In this document: piece by piece, positions 10,326 through 24,821 of the stretch
Numbering within the stretch: position 1 is the first letter of the stretch
Layout of the letters: each line of letters begins with the position of its first letter
Assembly: GCA_040218145.1 (NCBI GenBank)
Contig: JAVJQK010000006.1
Location: 1-39,133 of the forward strand
Source of the DNA: Sandaracinaceae bacterium
GTDB lineage: Bacteria; Myxococcota_A; Polyangia; Polyangiales; Sandaracinaceae
Reading direction: 5' to 3'
Length of the DNA: 39,133 nucleotides
Notes under the pieces: model-generated
The model's database searches: none
What the model was told of the DNA's origin: nothing
The model's input: the letters and a program-made list of their open reading frames with translations, nothing else
Translations under genes and position numbers: made by a program

Positions 10326-11318
10326 TCATGCGGTGCGCGAGTGGGAGGCGCGAAGGCGCTCGAGGCCCTCGGCGATGGACACGCGCGGGGCCCAGCCGAG
10401 GTCTCGCTTCGCGGCGTCGATCGAGAACCAGTGCGCGGTGGAGAGCTGCTCGGCGACGAAGCGGGTCAGCGGCGGCTCGCGCTCGGCCTTCGCGAGCCGG
10501 AAGGCGCCCTCGAGCAGCGCGCCCGCGGCGTGGGCGAGCCGCGGCGGGATGGCGACGACCTTCGCGTCGACGCCGTGCGCGCTCAGGATGCCGAGCACGA
10601 TCTGGCGCAGCGGGACCGGCTCGCCGTTGGTGATGAAGTACGCCCGGCCGGCGCAGGCCGCGTCCGGCGCGAGCGCGTCGAGCGCGGCGACGTGCGCGTC
10701 GGCGGCGTTGTCGACGTAGATTGTGTCGACGCGGTGCGTCCCGCCAGCGGGGAGCGCGATCCGGCCTCGTCGGCCGCGCGCGACGATGCGCGGCACCAGG
10801 TGCGGGTCGCCCGGACCCCAGATGAGGTGGGGGCGGAGGGCGACCACGGCGAGCGTCGCGGACCCCGCGGCGAGCACCTCGCGCTCGGCCGTGGTCTTGG
10901 TGGCCTGGTACGCCGTGCTCGGGTGGGTCGTGTAAGGGAGCGACTCGTCGCCGCCCTCGAGGTGACCGCCCACGTGCACCACGCTCGGCGTGCTCGTGTA
11001 GACGAGCTTCGGGACGCCGGCCTCGCGGCACGCCGCGAGCACGTTGCGCGTGCCGACGACGTTGGCGCGGTGGTAGTCGGCCTCGTCCCCCCAGACGCCC
11101 GCCTTGGCCGCGGTGTGCACCACGGCGTCGCAGCCCTCCGCCGCCGCGACCACGGCCGCCCGGTCGGCGAGGTCCCCGCGCGCGTGCTCGACCCCGAGCG
11201 CCTCGAGCGCGGGGTAGCGGCCTCGGCTGTAGCTCCGGACCGTGTCGCCACGCCGGGCCAGGCGCTCCGCGATGGCGCCGCCGAGGAAGCCGCCGCCGCC
11301 CGTGACGAGGACCCTCAT
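10326..11318 (-). CDS. oleD: OleD, 2-alkyl-3-ketoalkanoate reductase (extended SDR)
   Basis: 330 residues. NAD(P)-binding VTGGGGFLGG at residues 5-14, catalytic Tyr137 and Lys141 in YQATK, and VYTSTPSVVHVGG supplying the Ser/Thr position. The enzyme reduces the beta-keto acid made by OleA to a beta-hydroxy acid in head-to-head olefin synthesis. The identification rests on the sequence type and on direct overlap (ATGA, 11315-11318) with oleC. Other 3-beta-HSD-like epimerases look similar, so the context matters. It is the last clear ole gene of the sulfatase-ggt-oleC-oleD chain. Confidence 0.85.
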   Translation of the reverse strand: MRVLVTGGGGFLGGAIAERLARRGDTVRSYSRGRYPALEALGVEHARGDLADRAAVVAAAEGCDAVVHTAAKAGVWGDEADYHRANVVGTRNVLAACREAGVPKLVYTSTPSVVHVGGHLEGGDESLPYTTHPSTAYQATKTTAEREVLAAGSATLAVVALRPHLIWGPGDPHLVPRIVARGRRGRIALPAGGTHRVDTIYVDNAADAHVAALDALAPDAACAGRAYFITNGEPVPLRQIVLGILSAHGVDAKVVAIPPRLAHAAGALLEGAFRLAKAEREPPLTRFVAEQLSTAHWFSIDAAKRDLGWAPRVSIAEGLERLRASHSRTA

Positions 11319-13051
11319 CGGAGCAGCTGGTCGCGCGCCCAGACCGCGAGCTCTTCGCGCCGGATCTTCGCGTTGTGACGGATGTCGACGGGGAAGTCGT
11401 CGTGGAAGAGGAACGTCTCGATCGCCTCGGTCATCGGTTGGGCCCGCGCCAGCTCGCGCAGCTCCCGCGACAGCTCCACCGGAGACAGGCGCGCGTCGGG
11501 CTCGCGCTGCACGCAGAGGACCGGGTCGGTGCGCCCGCCGCGCGGCACGCCTACCAGCGCGCTGCGGAACACGTCGGCGTGGGTGTCGAAGACGCGCTCG
11601 CACGCCACGGTGAACCAGGTGCGGTCGCCGTCCACCACGCGCTGGGTCTTGCGGCCGCAGAACCAGAGCCGGCCGTCGGCGTCGAAGTAGCCGAGGTCGC
11701 CCATGCGGTGGAAGAAGCCGCCGTCGTCGGTCGGGATCTTGGCCAGGCGGGTCTGCGCCTCGGCCTCCCAGTAGCGCGCGGTCGCCTGGGGCGCGCGCAC
11801 GATGATCTCGCCCACCTCGTCGGTCGCGCAGGCGGGCGCCTCGTCCAGGCTGGCGATCGGCGCGTCGGTGATCGGGATCACCCGCACCTCCGCCGAGGCG
11901 ACGGGGCGACCCACGCACACGCCCGCCCCCTCCGCGGTGAGCGCGGCCGCGTGGTCGATCACCTCTCGGCTCTCGATCACCGCCACGGGCAGGCACTCGG
12001 TCGCGCCGTAGGGGGTCCAGACCTCGGCGTCGTCGGGGAGCATGGCGCGCATCCGCGCGAGCACCGCGGTCTGCACGGGCGCCCCGGCGCTGAAGACGCG
12101 GCGCAGGGTCGGGAGGGTCTTGCCCGTGCGCTCGCCCCACCGACTCAGGCCGTCGAGCAGCGCGGGGGAGCCGAACATGCACGTCACGCCGAAGTCCTCG
12201 ATGGCCTCGACGAGCTTCTCGGGGCTCGCCTTGGCGGGGCGCGTCGGATCCATGTCGGGGATCACGGTGGTCATGCCGAGCGCGGGATCGAAGAGCGCGA
12301 AGAGCGGGAAGGTGGGCAGGTCGATCTCGCCCGGCTGGATGTCGAAGGTCTCGCGCAGCGCGTCGACCTGCGCGGCGAAGTTGCCGTGCGTGTAGACGGC
12401 GCCCTTCGGCGCGCCGGTGCTGCCGCTCGTGAAGAGGATGGCGGCGAGATCCTCGGCCCGGGTGGGCGCGAGCGCGTCGCCGTCCCCCTCGCCGTGAGAG
12501 GCGCCGCGCGACATCACCTCGTCCAGCGTCAGCCCACCCCACGGCGCGCGCTTGCCGACCGTGATGGTGACCGAGGAGCTGCGCGCCCAGCGGAGCACCA
12601 GCCGGGCGACCTGCGCGGTGGGGATCCCGATGAACGCCTCGGGGCGCGCCTTCGCGAGGCACGCCTTCATGTTGGCCAGGCCGATGCCCGGGTCGACCAT
12701 CACCGGGACCGCGCCCGCCTTGAACAGACCGAAGACGAGCGCGAACAGCTCGAGGGAGGGTTTGACCATCAGGGCGACGCGCGTGCCGGCCGGGACCCCG
12801 CTCCGATGCAGCCCGCGCGCGATCCGGTCCGACGCCTCGTCGAGCTGGCGGTAGGTGTAGTGCGTGTAGCGGACGCGGCCGTTGTCGGCGCGGCCGTCCG
12901 GGAAGTAGATGGCTGGCGCGAAGGGCCGACGCGCCGCCATGGCCGGCAGGTGGCTGGCGATGTTGACGACGGCCGGGGGAGTCGTGGCGGCGGGGTCGAG
13001 CGCGGGCATCGCGTGGGCCGTACTACCAGCATGCCGCGCCGATGTCTTCAT
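11315..13051 (-). CDS. oleC: OleC, AMP-dependent beta-lactone synthetase
   Basis: 578 residues. ANL-superfamily ligase with the phosphate loop LFTSGSTGAPKGAVYTHGNF, the A5 motif TPYGATECLPVAV and the A8 region GDLGYFDADGRLWFCGRKTQRV. PYGATECLPV, the CACERVFDTH-like C-terminal part and the length fit OleC, which activates the OleD product with ATP and closes it to a beta-lactone. The ATG at 13051 overlaps the ggt stop (ATGA); an internal ATG at 13009 is an alternative start without a better ribosome site. The gene overlaps oleD by four bases. Confidence 0.88.
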   Translation of the reverse strand: MKTSARHAGSTAHAMPALDPAATTPPAVVNIASHLPAMAARRPFAPAIYFPDGRADNGRVRYTHYTYRQLDEASDRIARGLHRSGVPAGTRVALMVKPSLELFALVFGLFKAGAVPVMVDPGIGLANMKACLAKARPEAFIGIPTAQVARLVLRWARSSSVTITVGKRAPWGGLTLDEVMSRGASHGEGDGDALAPTRAEDLAAILFTSGSTGAPKGAVYTHGNFAAQVDALRETFDIQPGEIDLPTFPLFALFDPALGMTTVIPDMDPTRPAKASPEKLVEAIEDFGVTCMFGSPALLDGLSRWGERTGKTLPTLRRVFSAGAPVQTAVLARMRAMLPDDAEVWTPYGATECLPVAVIESREVIDHAAALTAEGAGVCVGRPVASAEVRVIPITDAPIASLDEAPACATDEVGEIIVRAPQATARYWEAEAQTRLAKIPTDDGGFFHRMGDLGYFDADGRLWFCGRKTQRVVDGDRTWFTVACERVFDTHADVFRSALVGVPRGGRTDPVLCVQREPDARLSPVELSRELRELARAQPMTEAIETFLFHDDFPVDIRHNAKIRREELAVWARDQLLR

Positions 13052-18824: not shown

Positions 18825-21299
18825 TCATCCGAGTCCAACCTCTGCCGCGGCCTCGCGGAGCAGACTCGCCCGATAGGAGTCGTCTGCCTGTACGTACATG
18901 CACGTCGTGCGCGGCCGTGAGCCCCAGCGGCGCTTCTCCAGGTCCGCGTCCATGCCCAGGTGCACTCGCTCCATGCCGAGCGCGCGGGCGCGTCGAAGCA
19001 CCTGGAAGAGCAGCTGCTTGTAGCTGCCGTGGGAGCCGACGTAGCGATAGTCCAGCCCGCCGAAGAGGGGCGCGTAGTGTCCACCCGAGCGGTGCGCGGC
19101 CCAGAACGCGACGGGGCTGCCGTCCGACGGACCGCCCTCCGCCGCGTCGAGGTGAAGGGTCATCACCTCCCACGCCTCCGAGTGCACGAGCTGCTTCACG
19201 AGATCGGGGGGAAGGTAGAAGGTGTTGAGCCGCACCTTGCGCTCCGCGATCTCCAGGTAGAGCCGGTGGAGCCGCGCGCACGCGAAGTCGAGCCCGGGCG
19301 CCTCGGGGGTCAGCTCTCGCACTTCGTACATGGCCTTGCGCTGCAGGCTCTGCTTGGACGCGCGCCGGTAGCGGCTGGCGGGGAGGCGCCGCACGAGGTC
19401 GTCGTCGTCCGCCCAGTCCACGTCGACCACGTGGCTGTCGAGGCCCGGCACCATCGCGAAGCCCTCGCGCAGCATCGCCTCCTCGAGCTCGGGGTCCTCG
19501 CCGATCAGATCGCGGATCACGAGCGCCGTCGCGTTCGCGTCTCTCTGCACGCGCGCGCCCTCGGCGAGGAGGACGCGGAGCGCCTCCTTCCACCGCGGCG
19601 ACGCGCGGTCGAGGTAGAGGTGATCGCCCTCGCTCAGCCCCGTGCCGGTCATGGTGATCAACGACGTGAGGTAGTACGGGTCGGCCTCGCGCCGGGCCTC
19701 GAGCCGCTCCGAGACGGCGGCCCGCATGTACATGTCGTCCTTCTGCAGGAGGGTGGTGAACACCGTCGCGGCGAGCGGCTTGCCGCCGACGTCGCGCACC
19801 ACCACGTAGTCGAAGCGCCAGCGGTGCTCGGGCTCGCGGTCGGCGCGGAAGACGGCCTCCACGTCCCGGAGCGACGCGGCCGACGTGCACCCCGCGCGGC
19901 CGAGCATCTCGTCCCACTCCTCGGCGTCGAGCGACTCGATGGTCGAGGCCCGCTGCACCTCGAGATCGAGCTTGAGGCGTTGCCCCGAGGCGGGCGTGCG
20001 CCGGGCTCGCGGCGGGCGCGACGGGCGGCCCTTGCCGAGGTCGGCCACGACGCTCTTCTCGAAGAGCCGGTCCAGCTCCTCCGCGTCGATGCCCTCCTGG
20101 TCGAGGACCTCGTGGAAGCAGCCGGCGAGCGCGTCGACGGCCCGGTCGACGTCCGCGCGGGTGTGCGCCGCCGTGAGGCTGACGCGGATCCCGCTCCGGC
20201 GCATCGGCACCGAGGGGTACATCGAGACGTTGACGTAGACGCCCGCGGCCGCGACCCGCTGCGCGACCTCGTTCGAGACGCGCGGCAGCCCGCAGCGGAT
20301 GAACTTGATCGGGGTCTCGTTGGCCGTGAGCAGCGGCAGCCCCGCCTCGAGGAGGCGCGCGTTGGCGTGCGCGATGATGGAGGCGAGCTTGTCCTGCCGG
20401 TCCGTGATCTCGCGGCTCAGGTGCACGTCCGCGCTCGCCACCGCGGCGCCGAGCATCGGGGGCTGCACCGGGCCGCTGAAGGTCATCGGGCCGCCGCACA
20501 TCCGGACCCGCTCGCGCTCCTCGCGCTGCGGGAACACGAGCGCGCCGCCGCCCGCGCTGAACGCCTTGTTGAGCGAGGTCGCGATGACCATGCGGGGGTC
20601 CAGCGCCATGCGCGAGAGGAAGCTCCCGCGCCCGTGCTCGCCGGCCCAGCTCATGCCGTGCGCGTCGTCGATGTAGAGTCGGACGTTGTCGCCGAGATCG
20701 AGCAGCTCCTGCAGGAGCGCGATGGGCGCGACGTCGCCGTACATGCTGGTCACGCCGTCGGTGGCGAACCAGACCGTTCGCCGCTCGCGCCGGAGCTTCT
20801 GCACGACCTCGACCACGCGGCCCAGGTCCTCGTGATGCACCATCTCGACCTTGGTGCCCGAGGCGCGCGCCAGCGTGGCGGCGCGGTGCACGCTCGCGTG
20901 GACCTGATGGTCGAGCACGATCGCGTCCTTCTCCGTCATCAGCGCGTCGAACGCGGCCTGGTGGCCGAGCGTGGTGCTCGAGGTGACGAGCGCGTGGGCG
21001 CCGAAGATCTCACCCAGCTTCTCCTCGAGCGTCGCGTAGAGCGGGATCGAGAGGTAGCCGCGCGAGACGGAGAACTGGGTGCCGTAGCGCCGTACGGCGT
21101 CGATCGCGGCGCCGACCAGCGCCGGATGCGTCTCCAGGCCGAGGTAGCTGCAGGAGGCGAAGCTGATGAGCGGCGCCCCGTTGATGTGCAGGTGGCGGCC
21201 GCGGACCGATTCGTCCTCACAATACTGGAAGAAGAGCCCGCGGCGGCGGGCGTCGGCGTGCAGGGCTTCGACGGAGGCGATGAACTGCGAGACTTCCAA
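18825..21299 (-). CDS. Alpha-oxoamine synthase fused to GNAT-like acyltransferase
   Basis: 824 residues. Residues 1-430 are a PLP alpha-oxoamine synthase like AONS, serine palmitoyltransferase and CqsA: DHQVHASVHRA (130-140), YIDDAHGMSWAGEHG (209-223) and the PLP Lys245 in TSLNKAFSAGGG. Such enzymes condense an amino acid with an acyl thioester. A basic Pro/Arg linker (about 432-455) leads to a GNAT/BioF2-like domain (about 455-824) with EEWDEMLGRAGCTSA and the acyl-CoA-binding end GSYKQLLFQVLRRARALGMERVHLGMDADLEKRRWGS. Ceramide synthase of bacteria belongs to a GNAT-like group, so a one-protein ketosphinganine plus N-acylation route is possible but unproven. It starts 15 bases after the lipoprotein gene. 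Confidence 0.85.
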   Translation of the reverse strand: MEVSQFIASVEALHADARRRGLFFQYCEDESVRGRHLHINGAPLISFASCSYLGLETHPALVGAAIDAVRRYGTQFSVSRGYLSIPLYATLEEKLGEIFGAHALVTSSTTLGHQAAFDALMTEKDAIVLDHQVHASVHRAATLARASGTKVEMVHHEDLGRVVEVVQKLRRERRTVWFATDGVTSMYGDVAPIALLQELLDLGDNVRLYIDDAHGMSWAGEHGRGSFLSRMALDPRMVIATSLNKAFSAGGGALVFPQREERERVRMCGGPMTFSGPVQPPMLGAAVASADVHLSREITDRQDKLASIIAHANARLLEAGLPLLTANETPIKFIRCGLPRVSNEVAQRVAAAGVYVNVSMYPSVPMRRSGIRVSLTAAHTRADVDRAVDALAGCFHEVLDQEGIDAEELDRLFEKSVVADLGKGRPSRPPRARRTPASGQRLKLDLEVQRASTIESLDAEEWDEMLGRAGCTSAASLRDVEAVFRADREPEHRWRFDYVVVRDVGGKPLAATVFTTLLQKDDMYMRAAVSERLEARREADPYYLTSLITMTGTGLSEGDHLYLDRASPRWKEALRVLLAEGARVQRDANATALVIRDLIGEDPELEEAMLREGFAMVPGLDSHVVDVDWADDDDLVRRLPASRYRRASKQSLQRKAMYEVRELTPEAPGLDFACARLHRLYLEIAERKVRLNTFYLPPDLVKQLVHSEAWEVMTLHLDAAEGGPSDGSPVAFWAAHRSGGHYAPLFGGLDYRYVGSHGSYKQLLFQVLRRARALGMERVHLGMDADLEKRRWGSRPRTTCMYVQADDSYRASLLREAAAEVGLG

Positions 21300-21314: not shown

Positions 21315-22514
21315 TCAGCGACGGTGAAAAGGGATGACCTTCGCGACGACGAAGGGCAGGCGGAATTGGTCTTCGGTGAGCGCGGCGTTGATGCCGGTCC
21401 AGCGATGCTCCTGGTCGCTCACCACGACGAGGGGGCTGAGGCCGAACACGGGCGGCAGCTGCGTGGCGCAAACCGGGAAGTCGAAGAGCACCGCGTCGGG
21501 GCCGATGAGCCGCTCGCGCGCGCCCGTGACGAGATCGATGCGCAACACCTCGAGCGCGATCGCGTCCATGGCGTAGAGCGTGTCGGGCTCGCCGTAGCGG
21601 TCGACGACCAGGCCCTTGAGCACGTCCGTGACGCTGCCCGGCGGAGGAGGGGAGAGCAGCTCGATGTCGGCGCCGCGCAGGTGGGGCGCGCGCCCATCGG
21701 AGAGGGCGGCGATCGGGAGCCGCCGCAGCCCGCCCGCGCACGTGTTGCCGAAGTAGACGTAGGTGTCGTCGGCGGCGAGGAAGCCGACGCCGGGCGCGAA
21801 CATGCCGGCCGGCTCGAAGGGGATGCCGTCGACGCTCACCCCGGCCGGGAACCCGCAGGGGGCGAGCCCGGGGATCGCGTCGCTCGGGGCGAAGCCGGCC
21901 GGGACGACGCCGGGGCGGACGGTGCCGTCGGGCTCCACGATCCAGAGCGCGCCGAGGATGGACTCGCTCACCACGTAGGAGCCGTCGGGGAGGACCTCGA
22001 AGTCCTCGACGAAGAGGGTGATCGCGCCCGTCATCGGCAGGCTGCGCACGTGGTCCGCCTCGAAGCGCCGCGCGCGGCGGTCCCAGCGGTACTCGTACTC
22101 GTGAATGGACGCGGTGGGCGGCGGCGCGGTCGGGTCCGGGAAGCCGCCGGGATCGAGCACCGCGAGCGTGCCGACGCCGGTGCTCCGCAGCGCGAACGGG
22201 AGCACGAAGCCGCCAGGCGGCGCGGGCAGCTCACCCAGCTCGCGCCCGGTGTAGCGGCTGAGCGCCACGACGCGCCCCGTCAGCGGCTCGGTCAGGAAGA
22301 CGAAGCGCTCGTCCCCCGCGACGCCGTGCGGCATCGCGTCCCGCGTCGTCCAGTCGTAGGCGATCGCGCGCCGCTCGACCCGGACGCGCAGCGCCTCCGA
22401 CGACGCCGAGACCTCGTCGGTCGCCTCCGCCGGCACGTCTGCGCAGCCGGCGAGCGAGGAGATCCATAGAGCGCACCCCATCAGGGCGCGCAGCCCAGTG
22501 CACCGCTTTCCCAC
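21315..22514 (-). CDS. Secreted lipoprotein, beta-propeller-like
   Basis: 399 residues. N-terminal signal ALMGCALWISSLAGC with lipobox LAGC, then a short Ser/Ala/Glu linker ending SSEAL, which is typical of myxobacterial lipoproteins. Repeated strands such as ERFVFLTEPLTGRVVALSRYTGREL, SYVVSESILGALWIVEPDGTVRPG, TYVYFGNTCAGGLRRLP and LYAMDAIALEVLRIDLVTGARERL suggest propeller blades. No catalytic residues recognised. It sits 231 bases downstream of oleB behind a repeat-rich gap and 15 bases upstream of the synthase-acyltransferase fusion. Confidence 0.75.
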   Translation of the reverse strand: MGKRCTGLRALMGCALWISSLAGCADVPAEATDEVSASSEALRVRVERRAIAYDWTTRDAMPHGVAGDERFVFLTEPLTGRVVALSRYTGRELGELPAPPGGFVLPFALRSTGVGTLAVLDPGGFPDPTAPPPTASIHEYEYRWDRRARRFEADHVRSLPMTGAITLFVEDFEVLPDGSYVVSESILGALWIVEPDGTVRPGVVPAGFAPSDAIPGLAPCGFPAGVSVDGIPFEPAGMFAPGVGFLAADDTYVYFGNTCAGGLRRLPIAALSDGRAPHLRGADIELLSPPPPGSVTDVLKGLVVDRYGEPDTLYAMDAIALEVLRIDLVTGARERLIGPDAVLFDFPVCATQLPPVFGLSPLVVVSDQEHRWTGINAALTEDQFRLPFVVAKVIPFHRR

Positions 22515-22745: not shown

Positions 22746-23636
22746 TCACCCGAGGGGGTTCGCGGACAGGAACTGGCGGACGCGCGGGAGGATCTCGTCC
22801 GACGCGTCCTCGAGCACGTAGTGCCCACAGTCGGGAAAGCGAACGACCTCGGCCTGCGGGAGGAAGCGCTCCCATTCGCGGAGGAACGGCGCGTCGAAGA
22901 CGAAGTCCTTCTCGCCCCAGCAGATGAGGGCCGGCTTGTCCTGGAACAGGTGCAGGCGATCGGCCGTCTCGCGCACGATGGCGTGGCCGGGGTCACGGGG
23001 CGAGAGCGGGATGTCCTGCACGAAGCGCAGCGTCGCGATGCGGTTGGCCGGCGTGTCGTAGGGCGCTGTGTACGCCTTGCGCACGTCGCGCGGCATCGGC
23101 TTGCGGGTGACGCAGGTCCGCGCCGCGACCTCGCTGAACGCGTTGAGCCGCTCCACGAGCAGCCCACCGATCGGCGTGCGGGTGAGCTTCAGCGGCCAGT
23201 GAAAGGGGCGCTCGGTGGGCAGCGGGAACGCCGCCGTGTTGAGGATCACCAGGCGCGCGACGCGCTCGGGGTGCCGCGCCGCCCAGGCCATGCCGATCAT
23301 GCCGCCCCAGTCGTGCACGACGAGGGTGACGTTCTGATTCACCTCGAGGTGCTCGAGCAGGTCCTCGAGGTCGTCGACCCGCTGGGCGAGCGTGTAGTCG
23401 TAGTGGGCGTCCCCGGGCTTGTCGCTCTTGCCCATGCCGATGTGGTCGGGGACGACGCAGCGGTGGTCGGCCTTCAGCGCGTCGACGAGGTTGCGGTAGT
23501 AGAAGGACCACGTGGGGTTGCCGTGCACCATCACCACGGGGTCGCCTTCGCCCTCGTCGAGGTAGTGCATGCGGTGGCGTCCGAGCTGGTGCCAGTGCGG
23601 CTCGAAGGGGAACAGAGATCGCGGGACGGCCCTCAC
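22746..23636 (-). CDS. oleB: OleB, beta-lactone decarboxylase (haloalkane dehalogenase-like)
   Basis: 296 residues, alpha/beta hydrolase. HGNPTW (38-43) forms the oxyanion hole, the nucleophile is Asp109 in VVHDWGGMIGMAWA, and the catalytic His272 lies in PDCGHYVLED. Asp rather than Ser in this place is the dehalogenase/OleB type. OleB decarboxylates the OleC beta-lactone to a cis-olefin. The start is GTG at 23636 with GAGGTGAT eight bases upstream, and that ribosome site is itself a copy of a 15-base repeat at the oleA end. It follows oleA with 43 bases between. A true haloalkane dehalogenase is the alternative; the neighbour oleA argues for OleB. Confidence 0.88.
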   Translation of the reverse strand: MRAVPRSLFPFEPHWHQLGRHRMHYLDEGEGDPVVMVHGNPTWSFYYRNLVDALKADHRCVVPDHIGMGKSDKPGDAHYDYTLAQRVDDLEDLLEHLEVNQNVTLVVHDWGGMIGMAWAARHPERVARLVILNTAAFPLPTERPFHWPLKLTRTPIGGLLVERLNAFSEVAARTCVTRKPMPRDVRKAYTAPYDTPANRIATLRFVQDIPLSPRDPGHAIVRETADRLHLFQDKPALICWGEKDFVFDAPFLREWERFLPQAEVVRFPDCGHYVLEDASDEILPRVRQFLSANPLG

Positions 23637-23694
23637 CAGATCACCTCTTTCAGCGGGTCTCGTGTCACCAGATGACCTCTCACCAGATGACCTC
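23633..23694. repeat. Three copies of a 15-base repeat at the oleA end
   Basis: TCACCAGATGACCTC occurs at 23665-23679 and immediately again at 23680-23694, with a one-mismatch copy at 23633-23647. Read on the minus strand each unit is GAGGTSATCTGGTGA, encoding Glu-Val-Ile-Trp-stop in the oleA frame. The first unit met by the ribosome holds the true oleA stop, and the last one holds the oleB ribosome site and GTG start. Confidence 0.9.
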
Positions 23695-24696
23695 GGCCAT
23701 CGCGCAGTTCAGCCCGCTGCCGATGCCCATCAGGGCCACGCGGTCGCCCCGCTTCACGCGTCCCTCGGCCGCCGCCTTGGCGAGCGTCATCGGCACCGAC
23801 GCCGGCCCGACGTTCCCGTGCTCCGGGTAGATCACCGGCACCCGCCCGAGATCCAGCCCCAGCGCGCGCGCGAGGTGCTCGGTGTGCGGCTTGCTCACCT
23901 GGTGCAGCACCGCGTGGTCGAGCGCGTCGGCCGACCAGTCCAGCTCGTCCGCGGCGCGCGCCCAGGTCTGCGTCGCGAGCTCGAGCCCCGCCGCGAGCAG
24001 CCCCGTCGTGTCCGTCTTCATCCAGTCCACCTGCCCGCGGCAGAGGTGGTTGTGCTGGCTGGCCGCGAGGCTGACGAGCCCCGTGAAGCGATGTCCGTCG
24101 GGGGCGAGGGCGCTCCGGGTCAGGACGGCCGCGGCGCCGCCGCTCCCGAGCGTGAGCGTGGCGATGTTGTCGCGAAAGGTCTGCGGGCTCGCGTCGGGCG
24201 CCTGGAGCCGCTCCAGGGTTTTCTCGACCACGAAGCGCGAGCTCTCCCCATCGACGACCAGCCCGTAGTCCACCTGGCCGCGCTCGATCATCTGCGCGAC
24301 GAGGTCCATCCCGTTGAGGAAGCCGAGGCAGGCGTTGGAGAGATCGAAGTTCAGGCAGGTCGCGGGCAGACCGAGGTTGCCGTGCACGAGGCACGCGGTG
24401 GAGGGCTCGATGTAGTCGCGGCACACGCTGGTGTTGATCAGCACGCCGATCCGGCCGCGGTCCACGCCCGCGTCGGCCAAAGCGCCCTCCGCCGCGCGCG
24501 TCGCCGCGTCGCTCGGCGCGAAGTCCGCATCCCAGAAGCGTCGCGCGACGATCCCACTCAGCGCCTCGAGCGTCCCGGGCAGCAGGCCCAGCCTCGGCAG
24601 GTGCGCGGACAGCTGCGCCTCCAGATCCGCGGTGCGGACCCGGTGCGTCGCCTCCACCGCGTGCAGGGAGGCCAGGACGACGTCGTCATAGCGCAT
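23680..24696 (-). CDS. oleA: OleA, thiolase-fold acyl-CoA condensing enzyme
   Basis: 338 residues. Thiolase/KAS-III fold with catalytic Cys123 in FDLSNACLGFLNGM, His265 in HQVSKPHTEH and Asn295 in EHGNVGPASVP. The segment INTSVCRDYIEPSTACLVHG carries Glu97, the position used as a base in OleA condensations. OleA joins two fatty acyl-CoAs head-to-head to a beta-keto acid, the first step of olefin or ketone synthesis. Start at ATG 24696. It is the first gene of the oleAB pair; oleC and oleD lie about 9.7 kb further downstream. Confidence 0.9.
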   Translation of the reverse strand: MRYDDVVLASLHAVEATHRVRTADLEAQLSAHLPRLGLLPGTLEALSGIVARRFWDADFAPSDAATRAAEGALADAGVDRGRIGVLINTSVCRDYIEPSTACLVHGNLGLPATCLNFDLSNACLGFLNGMDLVAQMIERGQVDYGLVVDGESSRFVVEKTLERLQAPDASPQTFRDNIATLTLGSGGAAAVLTRSALAPDGHRFTGLVSLAASQHNHLCRGQVDWMKTDTTGLLAAGLELATQTWARAADELDWSADALDHAVLHQVSKPHTEHLARALGLDLGRVPVIYPEHGNVGPASVPMTLAKAAAEGRVKRGDRVALMGIGSGLNCAMAEVIW

Positions 24697-24821
24697 GAGC
24701 CCCGAAAGGGAGCGCAGCGGGGACCCACCGTCAAGCCGCACCGTACGGGCGCCCGAAGCGCTCCCCTCGTGTGAGACAACCCCTTTGACGAACGCGGGAA
24801 TCGCTCGCGCTCGCCGGAGCT

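Follow-up and report, generated by a model that had tools for sequence, protein, structure and literature searches.

A fused alpha-oxoamine synthase–GNAT acyltransferase from a Sandaracinaceae bacterium as a candidate synthase of a two-component lipid signal

The window analysed here is the whole of a 39,133-nucleotide stretch of DNA from a Sandaracinaceae bacterium (contig JAVJQK010000006.1, assembly GCA_040218145.1). An open reading frame check of the window returned an 824-residue frame with exactly the boundaries listed in Table 1 for a protein that joins an alpha-oxoamine synthase (AOS) half to a GNAT half. The gene begins with TTG, with GGGAGAA just 5' of it, and this start is supported because relatives of the fusion begin at the same position, mostly with ATG (M-E/D-x-S). 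A chance reading frame is ruled out because full-length relatives at 33–71% identity occur in several phyla; the fusion is real, with AOS and GNAT in one protein.

The fusion lies in a tight four-gene operon, ordered lipoprotein, fusion, STAS-like protein and receiver-like protein, and there is no kinase beside it in the window. The closest relative (G178) keeps all four genes, at 70, 69, 55 and 42% identity in operon order by BLASTP (71% for the fusion in the relatives search), with the receiver-like homologue in the same place. The lipoprotein gave zero matches in a Pfam search, and its beta-propeller reading comes from inspection; G178, G009 and an Archangium MAG each have a homologue next to the fusion, and two solo AOS genes also have one as a neighbour. 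Homologues of the small STAS-like protein adjoin other fusions, as well as solo AOS genes on both sides. Its STAS assignment is a weak one. The possible match to DUF7793 (PF25056), the small protein beside the Bacteroidota fusions described below, has an hhalign P of 8e-5 and a probability of 60% with only 25 columns aligned, and a DUF7793 profile gave sub-threshold matches only against members of the window protein's family. OleA-/OleB-like genes lie upstream of the fusion (window 22746–24753) and OleC-/OleD-like genes at ~10–13 kb (window 10326–13000). The two Ole-like pairs are thus split by about 10 kb, with the AOS–GNAT operon and sulfatase-like and gamma-glutamyltransferase-like genes between them.

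Table 1. Coordinates of the fusion gene, its parts and its operon partners in the window.
Feature	Position	Strand	Remarks
AOS–GNAT fusion gene	18825..21299	-	824 aa, TTG start
Alpha-oxoamine synthase (AOS) domain, residues 1-400	20100..21299	-	PF00155; invariant columns; structure matches
PLP lysine K245	~20565-20567	-	Invariant column
Disordered linker, residues 421-442	19974..20039	-	pLDDT <50; gappy unconserved columns
GNAT / Acetyltransf_6 domain, residues 443-824	18828..19973	-	PF13480; 14 invariant residues
Beta-propeller-like lipoprotein, lipobox-like LAGC	21315..22514	-	15 bp upstream of fusion
Putative small STAS-like protein, ~150 aa	18376..18828	-	ATGA overlap with fusion stop
Receiver-like protein, 266 aa	17572..18372	-	3 bp downstream of STAS-like gene; Response_reg sub-threshold, E 0.087

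The preliminary description had read the protein as an AOS followed by a GNAT acyltransferase, and the domain searches bear this out. PF00155 (Aminotran_1_2) matches residues 44–391 (E 1.8e-28), and PF13480 (Acetyltransf_6) matches residues 664–788 (E 7.9e-10), at 39.5 bits against a Pfam gathering score of 22. The residues that mark a fold type I, PLP-dependent AOS are all in place: K245 together with H134, D211, H214 and R372 is invariant across 27 relatives, with roles that we take from knowledge of the AOS family. In the same alignment the linker is the least conserved stretch, and the AlphaFold model of the fusion (pLDDT 91, pTM 0.87) leaves it disordered. The AOS half resembles the structures of ThAOS, KBL, Alb29 and serine palmitoyltransferase (SPT), with VIA Z scores of 45–47; this search was run with the whole fusion, and AOS entries filled its match list. 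A sequence search of the PDB with the GNAT half returned zero relatives. Among 34 sequences from several phyla, 14 residues of this half are invariant.

The best NCBIfam match of the fusion is PRK07505 (NF005697), at 252 bits and under the curated cut-off of 342. Matches to other AOS families fall further short: 138 and 152 bits for the SPT models NF047599 and NF047600 (cut-offs 500 and 640), 171 bits for BioF and 165 for KBL (426 and 460), and 73.8 bits for the CqsA/LqsA autoinducer synthases (NF005526, cut-off 428). A maximum-likelihood tree of 77 AOS halves gives the same picture, with all fusions and the solo PRK07505-like proteins forming one clade (100/100, inner branch 1.58). This clade is separate from SPT-like proteins (the SPT reference rows being SPT-like Myxococcota proteins that are themselves below the SPT cut-off), from BioF and KBL, and from four above-cut-off NF005526 members, which form a clade of their own. 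The preliminary description had itself named a grouping with BioF or KBL as counting against its reading; none was found, and the genome has separate BioF-like and KBL genes.

At least five phyla carry one and the same fusion architecture, with relatives in Myxococcota, Bacteroidota, Cyanobacteria, Acidobacteriota and Gammaproteobacteria. A scan of named genomes located full-length fusions in a Sandaracinaceae MAG (an identical protein) and Nannocystis, in Pontibacter, Fulvivirga, Flavivirga and other Bacteroidota, and in Cyanobacteria, an acidobacterial MAG and gammaproteobacterial MAGs. Across the phylum of the window, 41 of 377 genomes hold a strong match, mostly a full fusion at 35–71% identity. 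The genome of the window itself (11.06 Mb in 148 contigs) encodes a single fusion; its three remaining AOS genes are a KBL, a BioF-like gene and one without assignment. Some solo AOS copies nest within the diversity of the fusions, which makes more than one loss or gain of the GNAT half probable.

Several individual copies stand apart. On the complete chromosome of G165 (L069, 9196–11618) the AOS half is in a different reading frame from the GNAT half, which may reflect two genes or a frameshift. A same-clade solo AOS is encoded on the Klebsiella variicola plasmid pKP187 (L237), flanked by an MFS transporter and an aromatic amino acid transporter, with relatives on further Klebsiella and Escherichia plasmids. 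A Mesorhizobium plasmid (L238) has a solo PRK07505-like AOS in the neighbourhood of genes for an AHL synthase, an autoinducer-binding regulator, a response regulator and a GNAT encoded separately.

Clustering of the genes beside the Myxococcota fusions brought out hybrid histidine kinases, REC-GGDEF proteins and AMP-ligase/ACP proteins. The kinases share an N-terminal sensor domain of 200 residues that returned zero matches in Pfam and NCBIfam searches. A model of this domain (pLDDT 89) resembles H-NOX (VIA Z 13.8, rmsd 3.5 over 168) and Bet3 (VIA Z ~10); Bet3 is a palmitate-binding family. No conserved heme-ligand histidine was found, with His reaching at most 5 of 16 sequences in any column, and the domain thus lacks the conserved proximal histidine of the heme-binding H-NOX proteins. 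It occurs in 97 of the 377 phylum genomes, usually in one or two copies each. A histidine kinase with this domain lies ≤1.7 kb from the fusion in 19 of 36 Myxococcota loci, or 19 of the 26 in which the genome has the domain at all, in three placements: downstream co-directional, upstream divergent and upstream co-directional. The sensor profile was built from fusion-adjacent copies and its ranking is biased accordingly; copies from loci outside profile building (G438, G334, G187 C497) are adjacent to the fusion too. The profile gave no matches in a set of seven genomes (cyanobacterial, gammaproteobacterial, acidobacterial and Archangium) that had no positive control. In four loci a fatty-acyl ligase gene takes the place of the sensor kinase directly downstream of the fusion, and the two ligases scanned carry an ACP domain. 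Such a pairing is consistent with acyl-ACP as the donor, the case reported for SPT (PMC9386255). In the genome of the window, two H-NOX/Bet3-fold sensor-domain proteins are encoded far from the fusion (L191, G000:C104:161661-162329; L192, G000:C115:5217-5933) and are possible trans-acting receptors.

The Bacteroidota fusions have a different set of neighbours. Of 39 loci whose flanks are long enough, 34 have DUF7793 ≤1 kb from the fusion and 28 have a kinase ≤2.5 kb away. These kinases are concentrated near the fusion, with 40 per 95 side windows at 0–2.5 kb vs 3 per 78 at 5–7.5 kb, and 18 loci also have a NarL-type regulator nearby. In 12 isolates DUF7793 is present in one or two copies, the best of which adjoins the fusion. 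The kinases scanned combine PAS with HisKA_3, HisKA or HATPase domains, and hydropathy predicted no membrane helices in them. Two Bacteroidota loci (L105, L141) have four to five tandem DUF7793 genes adjoining the fusion. In a cyanobacterium (UBA8530, L087), the fusion is flanked by a pair of oppositely oriented histidine kinase genes, of which the one checked looks membrane-bound; another contig has a further copy of the fusion (L089). In several Myxococcota lineages, Nannocystis and the gammaproteobacterial copies, neither a kinase nor DUF7793 is found beside the fusion.

Combined, these observations lead us to a tentative reading, to which we give just short of an even chance: that the fusion is a bifunctional lipid synthase whose acylated amino-ketone product is a signal for a two-component sensor. 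Both activities would reside in one cytosolic chain. In the AOS half, decarboxylative condensation of an amino acid and an acyl-CoA or acyl-ACP thioester would yield an alpha-aminoketone, and the tethered GNAT half would then move a second acyl group, probably onto the new amine. The product would serve as an intercellular or intracellular signal and, in most relatives, be read by the neighbouring, mostly soluble histidine kinase. The putative reader would be the H-NOX/Bet3-fold sensor kinase in Myxococcota and, in Bacteroidota, a PAS-type kinase accompanied by DUF7793 and often also by a NarL-type regulator. In the lineage of the window, the fusion has the STAS-like and receiver-like proteins as its partners in the operon, and a kinase, if involved, would act in trans. 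The domain make-up, the intact catalytic residues, the separate clade and the conserved neighbours are observed; the order of the two reactions, the N-acylation of the amino-ketone, the identity of the product and its role as a kinase ligand are inferred. The gene neighbourhoods in relatives also lend support to the earlier suggestion of a possible signal pathway. Kinase types differ between the phyla, and the partner is therefore not one orthologous receptor. A broader version, which we consider possible but hold with rather less than even confidence, is that Bacteroidota and Myxococcota share a widespread, undescribed form of signalling, independent of acyl-homoserine lactones and of Cqs/Lqs. 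It would consist of a one-protein synthase of doubly acylated amino-ketone lipids and dedicated soluble receptors, either a heme-free H-NOX/Bet3-fold kinase or DUF7793 with a PAS kinase. To our knowledge, small-molecule signals are poorly known in both phyla; the linkage of the fusion to sensor kinases in each offers a concrete candidate signal with candidate receptors, and a clue to what DUF7793 and an unannotated sensor domain do.

Regulation without product sensing is a serious rival to this reading. Histidine kinases often adjoin genes that they regulate without sensing the product, and the fusion may make a structural or secondary-metabolite lipid (an N-acyl aminoketone or a reduced derivative) whose production the kinase and STAS-like genes merely adjust to another cue. 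The lineages with a fatty-acyl ligase-ACP and no kinase beside the fusion are in line with this, as are the variation of kinase types between phyla and the STAS-like and receiver-like partners in the window, which suit the regulation of an enzyme. The linkage to one rare sensor domain of ligand-binding type, whose fold relatives bind hydrophobic ligands, and to a near single-copy DUF7793 is nonetheless tighter than generic regulation would lead one to expect, and we regard a non-signal lipid as a real but somewhat doubtful option. It is also conceivable that the target of the GNAT half is not the aminoketone but a protein such as the STAS-like partner, or the amino acid before condensation, in which case the fusion would not make an N-acyl aminoketone. 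PF13480 covers a broad range of substrates, the sequence search of the PDB gave the GNAT half no relative, and the STAS-like partners are tightly linked; however, the AOS–GNAT fusion persists as one covalent unit across phyla, which favours a shared intermediate, and we consider such a target unlikely.

Two further alternatives would place the fusion in an established pathway. As a joined SPT and bacterial ceramide synthase (bCerS), it would be a sphingolipid enzyme. The general chemistry is the same and SPT has the same AOS fold (Z ~45), yet the AOS half lies outside SPT in the tree and far under both SPT cut-offs, and a published survey regards AOS proteins beyond the SPT clade as likely to be alpha-oxoamine synthases of other kinds (PMC11334938). 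SPT-like genes of the phylum have a different GNAT-like neighbour in 5 of 12 loci; against five such SPT-adjacent proteins, used as a proxy for bCerS, the GNAT half scored an hhalign probability of 0.4%, and the genome of the window encodes a protein of this type on a different contig from the fusion. The sphingolipid analogy of the preliminary description is not upheld, a sphingolipid role is very improbable, and a protein combining AOS and GNAT should not be annotated by default as sphingolipid synthesis. The fusion also sits between OleB-like and OleC/OleD-like genes on the same strand, and could on that ground be assigned to the ole (long-chain olefin or beta-lactone) pathway of the window. 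Its location inside a split ole locus, as previously described, is literally correct, but the association is not conserved in relatives: none of 20 relative loci keeps the full ole set beside the fusion. Membership in the ole pathway is rejected because in the closest relative the operon is intact but no ole genes accompany it; the ole neighbourhood is coincidental, and we give the pathway hardly any credence.

The signalling reading is best placed by comparison with known systems. A search of open-access papers for AOS/GNAT fusions, DUF7793 and stigmolone biosynthesis gave no match. The best NCBIfam match is to the solo PRK07505 AOS proteins, which share the clade of the fusion and in some copies are flanked by the same STAS-like family; they lack the GNAT half and form an uncharacterised subfamily. 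Alb29 and ThAOS are among the closest solved structures to the AOS half; both are stand-alone enzymes with ~26–29% identity to it. SPT with bCerS follows the same logic of an AOS and a GNAT-type N-acyltransferase, with acyl-ACP supply genes in some fusion loci, but differs in AOS clade, in an SPT-adjacent GNAT without detectable relation to that of the fusion, and in having no shared locus. On the receptor side, the Myxococcota kinase sensor domain has the fold of H-NOX and Bet3/TRAPP, at ~7–15% identity and with neither a conserved heme-ligand His nor a Pfam family. The Cqs and Lqs clusters, in which an AOS-family synthase is paired with its own sensor kinase (PMC3376566), have a comparable layout: in CqsA/CqsS and LqsA/LqsS an AOS-fold synthase gene adjoins a histidine kinase, often with a response regulator, and a kinase gene stands near the fusion in 19 of 36 Myxococcota and 28 of 39 Bacteroidota relatives, but not in the window itself. 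CqsS and LqsS are membrane sensors, whereas the kinases beside the fusion are mostly soluble, with H-NOX/Bet3-fold or PAS sensors, and the fusion loci have an extra STAS-like/DUF7793 partner. Our best reading, by analogy, is a signalling system that would follow Cqs/Lqs logic without being a member of it, since the synthase clade, the fused GNAT, the receptors and the partners all differ.
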